A DNA stretch of 64,000 nt from positions 62,001 through 126,000 of the forward strand of contig JAKQIY010000085.1 in assembly GCA_029561455.1 (NCBI GenBank). The letters run 5' to 3'. A program made the translations under genes and the position numbers. The stretch's first letter is position 1. Every line of letters starts with the position of its first letter. This document shows, piece by piece, positions 2,749 through 53,203 of this stretch. The stretch comes from a bacterium (lineage in GTDB: Bacteria; Zhuqueibacterota; Zhuqueibacteria; Residuimicrobiales; Krinioviventaceae). Under the pieces are notes generated by a model, which saw nothing but the letters and a program-made list of their open reading frames with translations, made no database searches and was not told the DNA's origin.

Positions 2749-5700
2749 ATGATTATGAATAAAATCGTGTTTATGCTGTTAATGATGCTAGTCATTATGA
2801 CTAGTTTCCTCCAGGCAAGGTCGGTGGAAAAACTGTTCCTGGAAACAAACGCTACGCGTATGAATGGTACAACCACTATCGATGTTACCGACGCCAACCG
2901 CTATCGCATGGCGCCTGTCAAATTTGATATGCTGCAAAAGGCGGACGGTACCCCTGCCCTGAATATTGGCGATCAGTTCATTCTCAATCTCTTTACCGAT
3001 GTTACCGACACTGTTATTATAGATAAAGTCTTTAATTACCTGCCCGGCACCTACACATTGCGTGGTTGCGTGCCGGGTAAAGGAATGACGCGGCTGTTTC
3101 TTACTTTTACCGGCGAAAAGTTGATCGCATTATATTCCGTTCCGGAACAGGGGCGGGATTATCATATTATTTATGATATTGCCAACAACAGGTGCTGCAT
3201 AAAACAGATGCGAACCGATGCCGGTACCGTTATGGATGATGCTCCCGCCCTGCTGCCGCCGGATGTAAAGCCGGATGACTCTAATTATGATGCTTTAATT
3301 AAAAACAACAAAGACACTACCAATGTTTTTCAAACCGATGCTGACGCCTATACTACAGTGGATGTGATGATTGTATATACACCAGCAGCCAAAACCTGGG
3401 CGTCAAGTTCCGATAACGGTATCAATAACACCATATCACAGGCTATGGCTCTCGGCCAAACCGCACTTAATAACAGTGAAATTAACATTATTCTTAACCT
3501 GGTGTTAGCGCAGGAAGTCAGTTATACTGAAAGCGGCTCCAGTACCAAAGATTTGTACCGTATCACCTACTCGGCGAATTATGATCCCTGGAACCAGGAG
3601 GGTACGCCGCATTACATGGATGAGGTACATGGATGGCGTGATGCATATAAAGCCGATTTGGTAGCGATATTAACTAACTGCACCGATACCGGTGGCGTTG
3701 GCTGGCTGCTGAACTGGACTATAGGACGTCCTGAATTTGGTTTTTGCCTGGCGCGCGTACAACAAACCTCATGGACATATACGCTTATACATGAATGGGG
3801 GCATAATATGGGCGCGCATCATCGTAAAGACCAGGCCGTGCAACCGGGGCCGGGGTTGTATACCTATTCCGCGGGCTGGCGCTGGATAGGACAAAACGGA
3901 TCTCGCTACTGTTCGGTAATGTCATACCAGGATTCGTGGGACGGTAACTATGTCAGTCAGGTAGGTTATTTTTCCAACCCCTTAATTCAACATCAGGCAA
4001 CGCCAACAGGGAATATTGTAGATGGCGATAATGTCCGTGGTTTAAACCAGATCAGCAATGTCATCGGTGCATATCGGGATAGGGGATCCTCCACAAATCC
4101 GATCATTTCGGGATTTTTAAAAACAATCGGCGGAACAGCTTTTAACAATATCCAGATTGTTTTTAGTAACGGCGCGGGTTCCACAACATCAGACATTAAC
4201 GGTTATTATGCTAAAATAGTTCCCAATAACTGGAGTGGTACTGCTACCCCGGTGAATGCTTATCCTCTGTTCAACCCGGTTTTTCTCAGTTACAAAAACG
4301 TAACAAGTGATCAAAGCAATAAAAATTATACCGGTTACAAGAAAGGAAGTAATAATAATTTCTGGGTTTTAAGTCCTCAGGGTGGTGAAAAGTGGAAACA
4401 GGGTGAACAGCATATCATAACATGGGCTGCCCGTCCGGATGATGAAAATGTGTATGTGGATTTATATAATAAAGACGGTTTTGTCCAAAGGCTCAAAGCG
4501 AACGGTACCAGAAACGACGGTAATTTTACCTGGGATATTGGCCAGAACATTCCGCCTGACTCTACTTATAAAATAAGGATTACCGGAATAACTACCAAAA
4601 CATACCATGAAAACTATTATGTTTTTACAATCAGGAAACAAATCATTCCCGATCCCCCAGCTTTATTATCACCGGCTAACAATGCCGTAGATATCACAAC
4701 TACTCCACGTCTGGAATGGAGTTATGAAACCAATGCTTCGTACCGGGTGCAAATTGCCGGGGATGCCGCCTTTAATAATATGTTGGCGGAAGACTCGATT
4801 GTACTGACATCACACTATAACGTGCCTGCATGGTTATTACCCGTTAATTCAACCTGCTACTGGCGGGCTCAAACAAGTTTGGATGGCGAAAGCAGTGACT
4901 GGTCTGAAAACTTTAAGTTTCAAACAACTGCCGTTGCGGATACGTTAAAACTATTTATTGAAAACCTTGAACCGGCAAAATACCAGGCCGTATATATTGA
5001 TGAGTGGGAAAAATATTATACGGATCGCAATTACCAGGTCATGGCAATACCGGACTCTTTGAAGCATCTGCTATGGATTCGCACCGCCAATGATGATAAA
5101 AACAATGCCGCAGCGAATATGATAAGCTTTCAGTTACTCAAGGGCGCTACCATTTATATAGCCTATGACAGCCGGGCTACGGCGCCGCCGGACTGGCTGA
5201 ATAATGATTTTACTTTGACAAATTCAATTATTAATGTTAACGACAAATTTGAATACTTTACTCTCTGGAAAAAACATGCCCCCGCCGGGCCGATTGCCCT
5301 GGGAGGAAATATGGCGCACGGCGCGGCCGGCGCAAAAACTAATTTTGTGGTACTGCTTAAACCGGATGAAATTCCTGCCCAAATTGTTGTTTCATCTCCG
5401 AATGGCGGTGAGACCTGGTATAAAGGCGCAACCCAGGTTATATCCTGGTCTTGTACCGGGAATGTCGGCAATAATGTAAAAATTGAACTGTATCAAGCCG
5501 GCAGTTCCTCCAATATTATTTGTGATACGACCGCCAATAATAATTTTTATACCTGGACAATCCCCGACTCTCTTGCTCCCGGAAATGATTATAAAGTACG
5601 GATCACCTCGGTAGCGAACAACACGGTATGGGATGAAGGCAATGCGCCCTTTACAATTGCGGATAAACCTGCAATCATTGTGACCGCTCCAAACGGCGGT

Positions 5701-41970: not shown

Positions 41971-43257
41971 TTATTTTTTATTCATAGCCGTTTCGGCCTT
42001 GCTCCATTCCCCGGTGTATGGGTTGTACGTACAGGTTGGGGATTTGGCAATCAAATCACCAGTATAACCAAAGGCCCAAGGCCGGCAATCTTTGCACAGA
42101 TAACGATATTCACAGTCCTTGCACACGGTTATTTTATCCCTGGATAGCTGCCAGCAAGATAACAGTCCGTTATTTAGAATCTCTTGTAAAGTATGTGTGT
42201 TCAGGTTACCGGCAACCTGTTCCCGGGCAAATACACAAGGTATAACATTACCGGTTGCAGTTATAGCGGCTTTACCGAACCAGCAATTATTCCAGTACAA
42301 ACTCGTATCATATAATTGCTTATCGACTATCAAGTCGGGCGTTGTCCGCATAAAAGTTAATCCATAATCCGATGGCCAGTTCGTCATATCGAGTCCTCTG
42401 CCGCAGGGTCTGATAGGATCGGCCGGGCCGGAGGGAACACCCAATTGCTCAAGGAACACCCTGGTGGCATTCACCTCTTTTTCATTTTGCTTCAGGGCAA
42501 TAATGGAGCCCCGCACCTGAACATTATATGCCAGTATATATTTCAAACTGGACATTGTTTTTTCATAGCTACCGGGTATACCGGTAATCCGATCATGGGT
42601 GGCGGCATTAAAAGAATATAAAGAAAGAGCGACATGAATTGAATTTTCGGCTAAAAAGCGGATCAGGTTTTCATTCAGACCAATGCCATTGGTAAAAATT
42701 TCTATCGTCTCGAATCCTGTTTGTTTTGCATATTTAAACAGTTCTATCAGGTCATGCCGCAAAGTGCATTCTCCACCGGTAAACTGCACTTTACGGCAAC
42801 CCAGTGCAGCAGCCTGATCCAGCCATGAACAGATCTGCTCAGCATCGGGTTGATTACCGGGGCCGGATAATGCCTGTGCATAACAATGAATACAATGCAA
42901 ATTACAGTGGTTGGTTACTTCAATCCAGATAAAGGACAATTCAGGCCGGGCAGCAACCACATCTTTATCCGGTGCTTTCCCGGGTTTTACGGTAAAATCG
43001 ATCAATTTCAGATTGTGTAATTCATCCAACAGGCATTTCACATCATCAATATTGGTATGAATATGTTGCAGAACCTGCTCGATACTTGATCCACTTAAAA
43101 ATAATTTCATAATTTCACTGGCGGATTGATTAAGATGATGCAATCCGCCAGTTTTAAAATTGATCAAAAGTGAAAATTGAGCACCCAAAACCACTTCTAT
43201 ATTGTCTCTCAGGGTTACGTATCTTTCGGCAGGATGTAGATATGTTTTCCTCTCCAC
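41971..43257 (-). CDS. Radical SAM/SPASM peptide maturase with N-terminal PqqD/RRE-like domain
   Basis: 428 residues, GTG start with AAGGTG 5 nt upstream. Residues 1-90 resemble a PqqD-type recognition element that binds precursor leaders (HPAERYVTLRDNIEVVLG, LINFKTGGLHHLNQSASEIMKLF, VKCLLDELHNLKLI). The radical SAM core has the 4Fe-4S/SAM motif CNLHCIHC (Cys118, 122, 125), a GGECTLRHD loop (the GGEP-type SAM contact) and EIFTNGIGL. A SPASM-type set follows: Cys325, Cys341 (ATGNVIPC), then Cys379-x2-Cys382-x5-Cys388-x2-Cys391 and Cys409, enough for auxiliary clusters. The gene sits 9 nt downstream of the Cys-rich precursor-like gene on the same strand. The expected chemistry is C-S or C-C bond formation on that peptide, by analogy with ranthipeptide or SCIFF maturases. 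Confidence 0.88.
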   Translation of the reverse strand: MERKTYLHPAERYVTLRDNIEVVLGAQFSLLINFKTGGLHHLNQSASEIMKLFLSGSSIEQVLQHIHTNIDDVKCLLDELHNLKLIDFTVKPGKAPDKDVVAARPELSFIWIEVTNHCNLHCIHCYAQALSGPGNQPDAEQICSWLDQAAALGCRKVQFTGGECTLRHDLIELFKYAKQTGFETIEIFTNGIGLNENLIRFLAENSIHVALSLYSFNAATHDRITGIPGSYEKTMSSLKYILAYNVQVRGSIIALKQNEKEVNATRVFLEQLGVPSGPADPIRPCGRGLDMTNWPSDYGLTFMRTTPDLIVDKQLYDTSLYWNNCWFGKAAITATGNVIPCVFAREQVAGNLNTHTLQEILNNGLLSCWQLSRDKITVCKDCEYRYLCKDCRPWAFGYTGDLIAKSPTCTYNPYTGEWSKAETAMNKK

Positions 43258-43266
43258 GTTTTCACC

Positions 43267-43752
43267 TTATTTTATTTTTTTTCTTATTTCCACGATCTCG
43301 GCTTTAACTTTTTCAAGTTCCTGTATCATTTCCTTTAGTTCTACAGCCACTTCCCTGACCAGAACTTGTTCAGCAGGGTTTATATATATATCCTCAAAGT
43401 CTGGTATTGTATAGTTTACAGGGGCACACATTGAACCCGGTCCGCAATAGATTTCCGGTTTACAGGGTACTAACGGTACACATTTTGTCACTGGTACACA
43501 AAAAATGTCTGGTTTGCAATAATACATCGGCCGGCAAATTGATGCAGGTTTACATAAATCAGGCCGGCAGAAACGTTGCGGAATACACTCTATATCCGGG
43601 AGACAAGATGAAATATCAGGCAAACAGACTTTGATCTGATCAATTTTATCTTTAATTGGATTGCACACCTCCAATTTAAGTAGATCTGATATTTTGAATC
43701 CCTCTTTTAGTGTTTCCACGAGTGGTTTTTGTTTAGCTTTTTCATCAGCCAT
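43267..43752 (-). CDS. Cys-periodic RiPP precursor-like protein (13 C-x-P motifs) with C-terminal coiled coil
   Basis: 161 residues from the ATG at 43752; AGGAGG ends 7 nt upstream, whereas the ATG two codons earlier has no room. Residues 1-29 are leader-like (LVETLKEGFKISDLLKLE), helical and hydrophobic. The core has 13 Cys at 30, 43, 50, 56, 62, 67, 73, 79, 85, 91, 97, 103 and 109, and every one is in C-x-P. From 50 to 109 the spacing is six residues except one step of five. Several have Asp or Glu at +3 (CLPD, CRPD, CKPD, CKPE), a possible acceptor for a thioether. The last 40 residues form a heptad-like charged helix (LVREVAVELKEMIQELEKVKAE). There is no export signal and no repeat of this kind elsewhere in the window. 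Function inferred: substrate of the adjacent radical SAM enzyme, perhaps with a structural end product. Confidence 0.72.
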   Translation of the reverse strand: MADEKAKQKPLVETLKEGFKISDLLKLEVCNPIKDKIDQIKVCLPDISSCLPDIECIPQRFCRPDLCKPASICRPMYYCKPDIFCVPVTKCVPLVPCKPEIYCGPGSMCAPVNYTIPDFEDIYINPAEQVLVREVAVELKEMIQELEKVKAEIVEIRKKIK

Positions 43753-43819
43753 TTTCATTCCTCCTTTTAGTAGTAAAAGATGCCTGGCTTAATGCTTCTT
43801 TTCCATTTGTCTTGTTCAT
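43745..43819 (-). CDS. Possible 24-residue leader ORF overlapping the precursor start
   Basis: ATG at 43819 after AAAGGAGTG reads MNKTNGKEALSQASFTTKRR and ends NENG at a TGA that overlaps the second and third codons of the precursor gene. The ribosome site is very close to the ATG (2 nt). It may be real and couple translation, or be an accident of the strong downstream AGGAGG. Confidence 0.25.
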   Translation of the reverse strand: MNKTNGKEALSQASFTTKRRNENG

Positions 43820-47050: not shown

Positions 47051-47326
47051 ATGAAATTTATTAATATAAAAGAATTGAGCAAATCACCTTCAAAATATAT
47101 TAAAAGCGCTAATGAAGAAGGAGATATAATTATAACACGCAACGGACAACCTTATGCATTACTATCCAAAATTGATGGCGACGAACTTGAAGACTATATT
47201 CTGGCCCGTCATTATGACCTTGAGAAACAATTCGATAATGCCCAACAAGAATACGAATCGGGCGCTACGATTCCGGCAAAGGAATTATTAGAAAAGCTTT
47301 CCCGGAAATCAGTTAATGACATTTAA
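47051..47326 (+). CDS. Phd/YefM-type antitoxin
   Basis: 91 residues, GGAG 5 nt upstream. N-terminal DNA-binding half typical of Phd/YefM: MKFINIKELSKSPSKYIK, then EGDIIITRNGQPYALLSK, in the expected order of strand-helix-strand. The C-terminal half is an acidic flexible helix (DYILARHYDLEKQFDN) that would wrap the toxin. It overlaps the toxin gene by 11 nt (47316-47326), the usual arrangement. Antitoxins of this family repress their own promoter. Confidence 0.85.
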   Translation: MKFINIKELSKSPSKYIKSANEEGDIIITRNGQPYALLSKIDGDELEDYILARHYDLEKQFDNAQQEYESGATIPAKELLEKLSRKSVNDI

Positions 47327-47636
47327 GGTTGAATACACTCAAAGAGCTGTCAGGGATTTGTCAAGTCTATCCACTGATGTGCAAAAAAAAATTGTGCAAG
47401 AGACAATTGAACTTGAAACAAAGCCGTTTCCTTTCAAGAACAAAATAAAAAGTATTCAGGGTATTAAATTCCCTTGCTATAGATTAAGATTTGAAAGTGA
47501 AACCGACTCGTTTCGGATATTTTATGGTATTGAAAAAAATGTTATATTTATATTACGAATTGTATCCAAAAAAGATGCGGACAAAATCATCAAGAGTTTG
47601 AAAAAAATTGAATTTCCCCCCAACATTCATAATTAA
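47316..47636 (+). CDS. RelE/ParE-superfamily toxin
   Basis: 106 residues. Compact RelE-fold pattern: FKVEYTQRAVRDLSSLSTDVQKKIVQ (strand-helix-helix), IKSIQGIKFPCYRLRF, DSFRIFYGIEKNVIFILRIVSKKDADKI. The FRIFY and VI.ILR...K.D.DK strands are the hallmarks of mRNase-type (RelE) or gyrase-type (ParE) members. Terminal catalytic residues cannot settle which; RelE-like is a little more likely. Partner antitoxin is directly upstream and overlapping, so this is a complete type II toxin-antitoxin pair. Confidence 0.85.
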   Translation: MTFKVEYTQRAVRDLSSLSTDVQKKIVQETIELETKPFPFKNKIKSIQGIKFPCYRLRFESETDSFRIFYGIEKNVIFILRIVSKKDADKIIKSLKKIEFPPNIHN

Positions 47637-50923: not shown

Positions 50924-53203
50924 TCAATCTTTTACCAACCGAACCGATAATCCATCTTTTTTAACCGCAGTAGCGCGGTAAATCATGGAAGTAGTGGCAG
51001 CCAGACTGCGTATCCATGCAAAATCGCGTTGTTCCTTTTCTGTTGCGGTCCAAAATTCAACCCCCTCTCCTTTACTCAGGAAAATGCCATCAAAATCCAA
51101 ACCCCAACGGTAGCCACCAGCCCGGGCTGAAAACCCGGTTGCATTGGTCGCCCCGGTATTGGGACTGTCCCAGTGCAATAATCCGATTTCTTTCAGCATA
51201 CCGCCTTCAACAGTACCACGCCAGTCAAATATCTCTAACTGGGATTTAGGAATACCTAAAAATTCTTCCATCTCCATCCACTCATCATCCGTAGGCACAT
51301 GCCAGCCTGCCGGGGCAATTTTGCGGCTGTCATGCACAGCAAGCCAGTTGTACAATGCGCCATACTCAATACCATTTTCGGGGTCATTATTATAATAACA
51401 ATAAGCGCCATACTTGGGGTCCCGCCATTCTTTCCCATCAGTAACATAAGTAATTGGGTCGCCGTTGCGATAATGGGTTACATTGAGATTTTCCGCCATC
51501 CATACCTGCTCGCCGATCTGGACGGTTCGGTAAATGTTGCCATCAATATCAGTAATATTTTCCGTTTCATGTGTTGTCGTTGTAAAACTCCAGGTTTCAG
51601 ACCAGTCGCTGGTTCCATCAGCATTAATTGCATTGATGCGCCAATAATAGGTCGTTCCCAAATTGAGATTACTTAACTGAAATTTTGTTGTTGTGACCGG
51701 AATATCGTTCTCTTCATAGATTATATTCGTAAATAGCGAATCACTGGCAACCTGCAGATTATAAGAGCTTGTAATTACATTAAACTTCCAGTACAACAGC
51801 AGAGTAGTCCCCATTTCCGTACTGCCATTCATTGGTAAATAAAGTTTTGGTGCAGCCGGTCGGCTGTCTTTAACACAGCGAATAGAACCACCCTCAAGTT
51901 TATATGTTACAAAACGTCGTATAGTGGGATAGAAACAAGTGAGTCCCCGATCCCAGGTAGTATCATTTTCTATATTTTGAGCGGAGCGTAAAATGACTAA
52001 AAGTCCCATATATTCGAATTCGCCATTATTGTCATTCCGTGATCCTGCTCCCCGGGCGGTAAAACCGGTTTCATTGGTAGCGCCGCCATTGGGGTTGTTC
52101 CAATGCTCGGTTCCGGTCTCCTTTAATTTTCCGCCGGCATCCGGCCCCCGGTAATCAATAGTATCTGCATCGGACTCGCTCATACCAAGAAACATTTCCA
52201 GTTGTTTCCATTCGCCATCTACAGGCACATGCCAGCCGGCAGGGGCTAGAATGCGGCTGTCGTTTGCGGCGTACCAGTTATAATAGGCCCCATAATCGAC
52301 AGCGGTTGTTATATCGTTATTATAATAACAATAGGCGCCATCGGTAAGAGTCGTCCATTCTGTATTATCAGTAACATTGGGTATCGGATCACCATTCCGG
52401 TAATGAGTCACTTGCAGGTTTTCCGCCATCCACCACTGCTCGCCGATTTTTACTGTTTTATAAATATTACCATCAATATCGGTAACAATAAGTTCAACAT
52501 CAACATTGATAGTGGTATTTGAAACAATTTGCACATCCTGCTGAATATATGTTGCGATATCCTCACCGCTTACCTGTAATGTATACAAACCAGAAGTCGC
52601 TTTAAACAAAACATCTTTTGCGATTGACATTTTATGTGCAGATTCAGAACTTAAAACATTTACAGCGCCAGCATGGCCGTCCAATAATAACATTTTCCTG
52701 TTTATTCTTGTATCTTTAGTGCGCAGCGTATAAATATACACGCCAGCCGAAACACCCTGGTTCTGTTCATTGGTCGCATCCCAAATCAACCGGCCATACA
52801 GATCGGTTTGAAAACCCTCATATAAAACTTTAATCCTTTGCCCAAGAACATTATAAATTTCAATACTTATATGGGCAGGATAGGGAATTTGATAACTGAT
52901 CACAGTAGCCGGATTAAATGGATTGGGATAATTTTGTAAAAGATTAAATACACCAGGTCTCTTTGTGGCAACATCTCCAATTGCTGTTCCGGGGATTTGA
53001 ATAGTATAAAGTCCTGCGGCATTAGTAGAACTACTGAAGACCGTGTTAGTATCAGCTTGATCTATCAATTCCACTAATGCATTCTTAACTGGCTCAGCAC
53101 CGTTATTCTGTACAATGCCCTGGACAATAATTTGTGCTAATAGATTATGGCAGACAAACAGGAGAATAATTGAAATAATAGTAACGAATCTGGAATATAA
53201 CAT
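50924..53203 (-). CDS. Surface protein: N-terminal CarboxypepD_reg and sorting-type domains, two FISUMP domains, Fn3
   Basis: 759 residues, signal peptide (ISIILLFVCHNLLAQ), GAGGG before the ATG. Order: carboxypeptidase-regulatory-like unit at 25-80 (ALVELIDQAD, GLYTIQIPG), a complete NYPNPFNP sorting-type domain at about 85-175 (YNVLGQRIKVLYEG, AGVYIYTLRT, KMLLLDG) placed near the N-terminus, a short beta unit, FISUMP domain 1 at about 243-450 (DIDGNIYKTVKIGEQWWMAENL, YNWYAANDSRILAPAGWHVP), an Fn3-like unit at 455-545 (YWRINAINADGTSDWSETW) and FISUMP domain 2 at about 550-759 (EQVWMAENLNV, YNWLAVHDSRKIAPAGWHVP, LSVRLVKD). It is most likely exported or surface-bound. Having the sorting-type domain N-terminal, as also in the GH5 at 377, is unusual. 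Confidence 0.85.
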   Translation of the reverse strand: MLYSRFVTIISIILLFVCHNLLAQIIVQGIVQNNGAEPVKNALVELIDQADTNTVFSSSTNAAGLYTIQIPGTAIGDVATKRPGVFNLLQNYPNPFNPATVISYQIPYPAHISIEIYNVLGQRIKVLYEGFQTDLYGRLIWDATNEQNQGVSAGVYIYTLRTKDTRINRKMLLLDGHAGAVNVLSSESAHKMSIAKDVLFKATSGLYTLQVSGEDIATYIQQDVQIVSNTTINVDVELIVTDIDGNIYKTVKIGEQWWMAENLQVTHYRNGDPIPNVTDNTEWTTLTDGAYCYYNNDITTAVDYGAYYNWYAANDSRILAPAGWHVPVDGEWKQLEMFLGMSESDADTIDYRGPDAGGKLKETGTEHWNNPNGGATNETGFTARGAGSRNDNNGEFEYMGLLVILRSAQNIENDTTWDRGLTCFYPTIRRFVTYKLEGGSIRCVKDSRPAAPKLYLPMNGSTEMGTTLLLYWKFNVITSSYNLQVASDSLFTNIIYEENDIPVTTTKFQLSNLNLGTTYYWRINAINADGTSDWSETWSFTTTTHETENITDIDGNIYRTVQIGEQVWMAENLNVTHYRNGDPITYVTDGKEWRDPKYGAYCYYNNDPENGIEYGALYNWLAVHDSRKIAPAGWHVPTDDEWMEMEEFLGIPKSQLEIFDWRGTVEGGMLKEIGLLHWDSPNTGATNATGFSARAGGYRWGLDFDGIFLSKGEGVEFWTATEKEQRDFAWIRSLAATTSMIYRATAVKKDGLSVRLVKD

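Follow-up and report, generated by a model that had tools for sequence, protein, structure and literature searches.

The window, a stretch of 64,000 nucleotides (contig JAKQIY010000085.1, Zhuqueibacterota), contains two adjacent genes that probably form a RiPP cassette in which a radical SAM enzyme would modify its peptide separately at each C-x-P site. The C-x-P peptide is very probably the substrate of the adjoining enzyme, and the pair looks like a representative of an undescribed class of enzyme-modified peptides. Nature of the modification is less certain; a thioether is the likeliest chemistry, although we rate its probability slightly short of even.

The precursor gene and the enzyme gene are listed with their parts in Table 1. 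At its full extent the open reading frame of the precursor covers 163 codons of the minus strand (43267-43758), and its in-frame ATG at 43758 would yield a protein of 163 residues. The ATG at 43752 is the likelier start, because the spacing to GGAGG is 7 nt there and 1 nt at 43758. Counting confirms what the sequence-only reading had reported: all 13 cysteines stand in C-x-P, the last ten intervals comprise nine of six residues and one of five (whole series 13, 7, 6, 6, 5, 6, 6, 6, 6, 6, 6, 6), and several units, namely 5 of 13, carry Asp or Glu at +3. Shuffled versions of the precursor protein contained at most 8 C-x-P motifs in 200,000 trials. At the DNA level, the window has seven matches to a pattern of three six-spaced C-x-P units, all of them within the precursor gene, against an expectation of zero. 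The codons for Cys and Pro vary synonymously from unit to unit, which points to a diverged coding repeat kept at the protein level and speaks against recent duplication of DNA.

Table 1. Features of the precursor and enzyme genes, in window coordinates.
Feature	Position	Strand	Basis and remarks
C-x-P precursor gene	43267..43752	minus	161 aa, ATG at 43752; ORF call
Shine-Dalgarno sequence AAGGAGG	43759..43765	minus	read from sequence; 7 nt from ATG 43752, 1 nt from ATG 43758
Leader-like N-terminal segment, residues 1-29, MADEKAKQKPLVETLKEGFKISDLLKLEV	43666..43752	minus	placed by analogy with leaders of relatives
C-x-P block, 13 units, presumed core	43420..43665	minus	C-x-P at 13 of 13 Cys; motif conserved in relatives
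Predicted long C-terminal helix, residues 126-160	43273..43377	minus	AlphaFold2, single sequence; block pLDDT up to 92
Radical SAM/SPASM putative maturase, 428 aa, GTG start	41971..43257	minus	PF04055, E 1.4e-21; PF13186 (SPASM), E 2.8e-8
N-terminal PqqD-like (RRE-like) domain, residues 13-89	42991..43221	minus	PF05402, E 0.0029, below cut-off
Radical SAM core, C118-x3-C122-x2-C125, residues 110-270	42448..42930	minus	Pfam match and alignment
SPASM domain, C325, C341, C379, C382, C388, C391, C409	42010..42306	minus	alignment of 12

The segments flanking the Cys block are less distinctive. The leader-like segment shows weak similarity to P-[TE]-I-x-L-V-T, the consensus of the leaders of the relatives described below. 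The C-terminal part is modelled as one long helix, which makes the coiled coil proposed from the sequence plausible, and the Cys block itself was modelled without confidence (mean pLDDT 48.8, AlphaFold2, precursor alone). A match to an established non-RiPP family had been named beforehand as evidence against a RiPP; comparison of the precursor with Pfam and NCBIfam gave no match above chance. Used as query, the precursor found no true homologue in its own phylum (matches had E 0.002 or worse), nor in genome contigs, viral contigs or plasmids.

The enzyme gene lies directly 3´ of the precursor gene, and its ribosome binding site, AAGGTG, overlaps the precursor stop codon. The radical SAM and SPASM domains and the catalytic cysteines of the enzyme are established at the level of sequence, and its scores remain under every equivalog cut-off of NCBIfam. 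Seven SPASM cysteines are invariant in the alignment of 12 members, the eighth cysteine of anSME being absent; the SPASM motif C-x9-15-G-x4-C, C-x2-C-x5-C-x3-C, C is present, with one gap of x2 instead of x3. The PqqD family (PF05402) gives any score in a single member of 12, and that under the Pfam cut-off. In the AlphaFold2 model (mean pLDDT 81) the N-terminal domain is composed of strands and three helices, and CteB aligns over residues 19-419, both in keeping with a domain of the PqqD type. The sactisynthase SkfB is first both by sequence profile (E 8e-24) and by fold (Z 24.5), with an rmsd of 10.3 over 304 residues, so the placement of domains differs. SuiB, CteB and anSME follow at Z about 22 (anSME with bound peptide, 4k38, Z 22.0); EpeE, an epimerase, and the cyclopropylglycine-forming TigE are also among the fold matches.

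The other neighbours of the pair, an upstream protein with a secretion tail and an unnamed downstream protein of 197 aa, have no visible link to it, and no protease or exporter was found beside it. Contamination or an artefact of a rare gene is unlikely, given the 182 kb contig, the GC content of the enzyme gene (0.43, equal to that of the window) and neighbours bearing secretion tails. By eye, two other loci of the window stand out. At 47051-47636 a gene for a Phd/YefM-like antitoxin overlaps one for a RelE-like toxin, and 50924-53203 encodes a protein of 759 aa that holds two FISUMP-like domains and, internally, a segment resembling a secretion tail of the NYPNPFNP type.

The enzyme, used as query against 388 diverse genomes, found two relatives passing E 1e-32. 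One of them belongs to a single-contig genome of 0.79 Mb (G139) from a phylum other than that of the window; genome sizes and gene content suggest that this phylum is Patescibacteria. Relatives were present in 10 of 380 genomes of that phylum, and an order-level search added 2 more. The genomes of these 12 relatives measure 0.7-1.2 Mb. In all 12 a C-x-P peptide gene is adjacent to the enzyme gene or one gene away, within about 1 kb, which bears out the proposed radical SAM link. The least certain pair is that of genome G482, whose peptide has a single C-D-P. At about 3005-3150 of locus L159 stands the smallest possible precursor, directly after the enzyme gene: a single C-D-P ahead of an acidic tail, MESTKANILLMGSGTSENNSCDPEVDENTEDMEQDEDKTGDHQHDDDG.

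Taken over the 13 peptides, 84 of 90 cysteines have Pro at +2, against a mean of 13.4 and a maximum of 27 in shuffled sequences; three of the 6 exceptions lie within N-terminal parts of peptides. Besides Cys, Pro at +2 is the only constant residue, and no acceptor residue is conserved at a fixed distance. In 36 of 83 units the residue at +3 is D, N or E, and in 7 units Gly stands at +1. The peptides contain 1-14 C-x-P motifs at variable intervals, mostly of 3-7 residues. The six-residue period, taken in the sequence-only reading for a trait of the class, is therefore peculiar to the window member. The long helix at residues 126-160 is likewise predicted in that member only, so that the proposed coiled-coil tail holds for this protein and not for its relatives. 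C-x-P defines the class; the period and the tail do not. Variable cysteine spacing had been put forward as an argument against the whole proposal. Such spacing does occur and speaks against the period as a defining feature, but the RiPP reading survives it, because C-x-P gene and radical SAM gene are paired in 12 of 12 relatives.

The background of such genes was estimated from 1025 ORFs in 138 kb around the loci, with a filter demanding at least three C-x-P that amount to half of the cysteines. Thirteen ORFs pass, comprising 12 radical SAM-linked genes (the window gene included) and one spurious short ORF. The six-residue period was also tried as a search probe and rejected: at least 118 DNA stretches fit five six-spaced C-x-P units, and most of those inspected are simple repeats, wrong frames or the antisense of collagen-like repeats, which makes the period alone a poor probe. 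The same scan brought up two Cys-Pro-rich frames, one from Syntrophomonadaceae with PPCPP repeats (L056, 5081-5621) and one Planctomycetaceae-like with CCxP repeats (L097, 1948-2287).

In 9 of the 12 relatives an HExxH protein is encoded close to the pair; two types occur, and family libraries gave no named match for either. These proteins of about 240-270 aa are of type A at L143, L145, L146, L147, L148 and L174 and of type B at L144, L149 and L172. The two families are possible candidates for leader or maturation proteases. No relative of type A was found in the window genome.

A different arrangement came from a plasmid search with the enzyme, which retrieved related proteins in Streptomyces, Amycolatopsis, Embleya, Rhizobium and Paraburkholderia. 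In these proteins the PqqD-like domain is absent and the SPASM domain is reduced to its first half, and C-x-P repeats form the C-terminal end in all 16 inspected (3 to 8 units where counted); in the first nine, 44 of 50 tail cysteines are in C-x-P. The tail occupies the place of the missing SPASM part, so cluster ligands are possible there. Downstream of most annotated Streptomyces copies lies a gene annotated as protein-isoaspartate methyltransferase or methyltransferase. Two of these neighbours were compared with TIGR04188, a RiPP methyltransferase family, and matched it at E 1e-75 to 1e-77, below cut-off. Streptomyces plasmid loci where the methyltransferase gene directly follows the tailed enzyme are L165, L166, L168, L169, L183, L184, L185, L187 and L189. 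A 2023 paper described 249 two-gene clusters of a radical SAM enzyme and a PAMT for which no precursor was found (PMC10787088). The fused Streptomyces enzymes likewise adjoin a TIGR04188-like methyltransferase, and pairs of the L165 type are likely to be these orphan clusters, which would make the C-x-P tails candidate substrates; the tails hold C-x-P-D and D-E-D stretches, suited to an Asp-modifying enzyme. In contrast, the window and the Patescibacteria-like members have a separate peptide and no methyltransferase. The plasmid material also included a Thiodictyon cluster (L188), possibly another RiPP cluster, where a distant, PqqD-containing relative is accompanied by a further radical SAM gene and by genes for an amidohydrolase and a YcaO protein.

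The window enzyme, the 12 Patescibacteria-like enzymes, nine fused ones and that of genome G129 form one clade with support 100/100, set against the four nearest radical SAM proteins of the window's own class. G129 encodes a 35% relative with a C-terminal extension, and its 8 kb contig contains no C-x-P gene. Within the clade, the window enzyme is nearest to the fused group, on a long branch and with weak support (84/84). Searches for orthologues of the enzyme found none among 82 genomes of the window's phylum (E 1e-24), none among 241 genomes of the phylum to which L020, a Chloroflexi MAG, belongs (1e-38), and none in viral contigs. Absence from the 81 other genomes of its phylum suggests that the window pair was gained by transfer. 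In genome G006, compared in search of an empty site, a single neighbouring gene is shared. The class appears to be undescribed, as had been supposed: no library names the precursor or the enzyme clade, and open-licence papers on C-x-P with radical SAM enzymes and on RiPPs in Patescibacteria do not describe it.

In its design the cassette would work like a RiPP maturation system. SkfB, CteB, AlbA and StsB likewise combine a radical SAM core and a SPASM or Twitch domain, their PqqD/RRE-like domain has a putative counterpart here, and a precursor containing Cys is likewise encoded beside each of them. From the sactipeptide and ranthipeptide maturases the window enzyme is set apart by its scores under the NCBIfam equivalog cut-offs and by a presumed substrate that is an array of C-x-P with no conserved acceptor. 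CefA/CefB pairs a peptide having Cys at every fifth residue with a radical SAM partner, and regular Cys spacing and such a partner recur here; unlike in CefA, the period is six or variable, Pro stands at +2, and no NCBIfam model matches the window peptide. In freyrasin biosynthesis, PapB forms thioethers in the six Cys-X3-Asp motifs of PapA, handling each separately and tolerating changes of spacing (PMC9413430). PapB provides a precedent for a SPASM enzyme that works on individual Cys sites whose spacing is loose. PapA resembles the window peptide in its several repeated Cys units, often with an acidic residue near; the latter has no C-X3-D/E, however, and its invariant residue is Pro at +2. 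Judged by the features compared, the window system belongs to neither the PapB nor the anSME family.

We infer the following course of maturation. The precursor would be translated first and the enzyme next, by coupled translation, and the PqqD-like domain of the enzyme would bind the leader part. The enzyme would then work through the core, where every C-x-P would count as a site of its own, recognized by its Pro at +2, whatever the distance to other sites. If each site is handled on its own, spacing and number are free, and cores of 1 to 14 sites can be accommodated. The likeliest reaction would be an oxidative thioether joining Cys to a carbon of its own C-x-P-(D/N/E) unit or to one adjoining that unit, with a loss of 2 Da per Cys. 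It is favoured because the nearest characterised enzymes form thioethers and because the SPASM cysteines of the window enzyme number seven, as they do in the thioether enzyme AlbA, anSME having eight (PMC5682303, PMC6231123). It is held low because no conserved acceptor is visible.

The same lack of an acceptor brings other Cys-centred radical changes into consideration. Since conservation is limited to Cys and Pro, the simplest reading would confine the chemistry to the C-x-P itself, in the form of an S-Pro ring bond, loss of sulfur or epimerisation. The units with Gly at +1 exclude a side-chain acceptor at that position, and EpeE and TigE belong to the fold matches. Against this, no RiPP with an S-Pro bond is known to us, and we regard a change of this kind as rather unlikely.

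Formylglycine deserves similar attention. The sulfatase-maturating enzyme anSME oxidises Cys of C-x-P-x-R to formylglycine, the sulfatase motif being built around C-x-P. Accordingly, an anSME-like enzyme might turn each C-x-P into an aldehyde (about -18 Da). A reaction confined to one residue needs no acceptor and would suit the variable spacing and the single-site G482 precursor, and both systems share a SPASM radical enzyme and a Cys with Pro at +2. However, Arg is present at +4 in just 1 of 13 units, so C/S-x-P-x-R is not generally kept, and the enzyme has one SPASM Cys fewer. The catalytic Asp of anSME stands after the Aux I Cys, while here the motif at that site is P-C-V/I-F. The C-x-P system further differs in its many sites per peptide and its separate precursor, and the fold match to peptide-bound anSME is equalled by those of many other SPASM enzymes. 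We consider arrays of formylglycine quite unlikely.

The fused tails, lying where the second SPASM half would be, could supply cluster ligands, and C-x-P segments might then generally be metal or Fe-S ligands for the enzyme, or metal stores, and not substrates. The two-gene enzymes retain a full seven-Cys SPASM domain, though, Cys number and spacing vary freely as ligands would not, and the peptides come with a leader-like segment and with candidate proteases nearby, so this is very unlikely. Finally, it is extremely improbable that the peptide is a structural Cys-rich repeat protein beside an unrelated enzyme, as its regular period and C-terminal helix might suggest, given a C-x-P gene beside 12 of 12 enzyme relatives over a background near zero; a structural role, mooted in the sequence-only reading, found no support.

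Returning to site-by-site modification, we tentatively extend it to the whole clade, in a reading that we hold possible, though distinctly less than even in probability. C-x-P would mark the substrates, and the radical SAM chemistry, a class in its own right, would act on one site at a time, either in a peptide whose leader is read by an RRE-like domain (Patescibacteria-like members and the window) or in the fused tail of the enzyme itself (Actinomycetota, Proteobacteria), and the orphan rSAM-PAMT pairs would have their missing substrate in that tail.

If true, radical SAM enzymes would modify an undescribed class of peptides set by a two-residue code, and this class would be present in bacteria with very small genomes, from which few natural products are known. 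The 249 substrate-less pairs of radical SAM enzyme and methyltransferase would receive a testable answer, as the enzyme's own tail may be what is modified. Precursors with one site, among them that of G482, would make the chemistry easy to read out.
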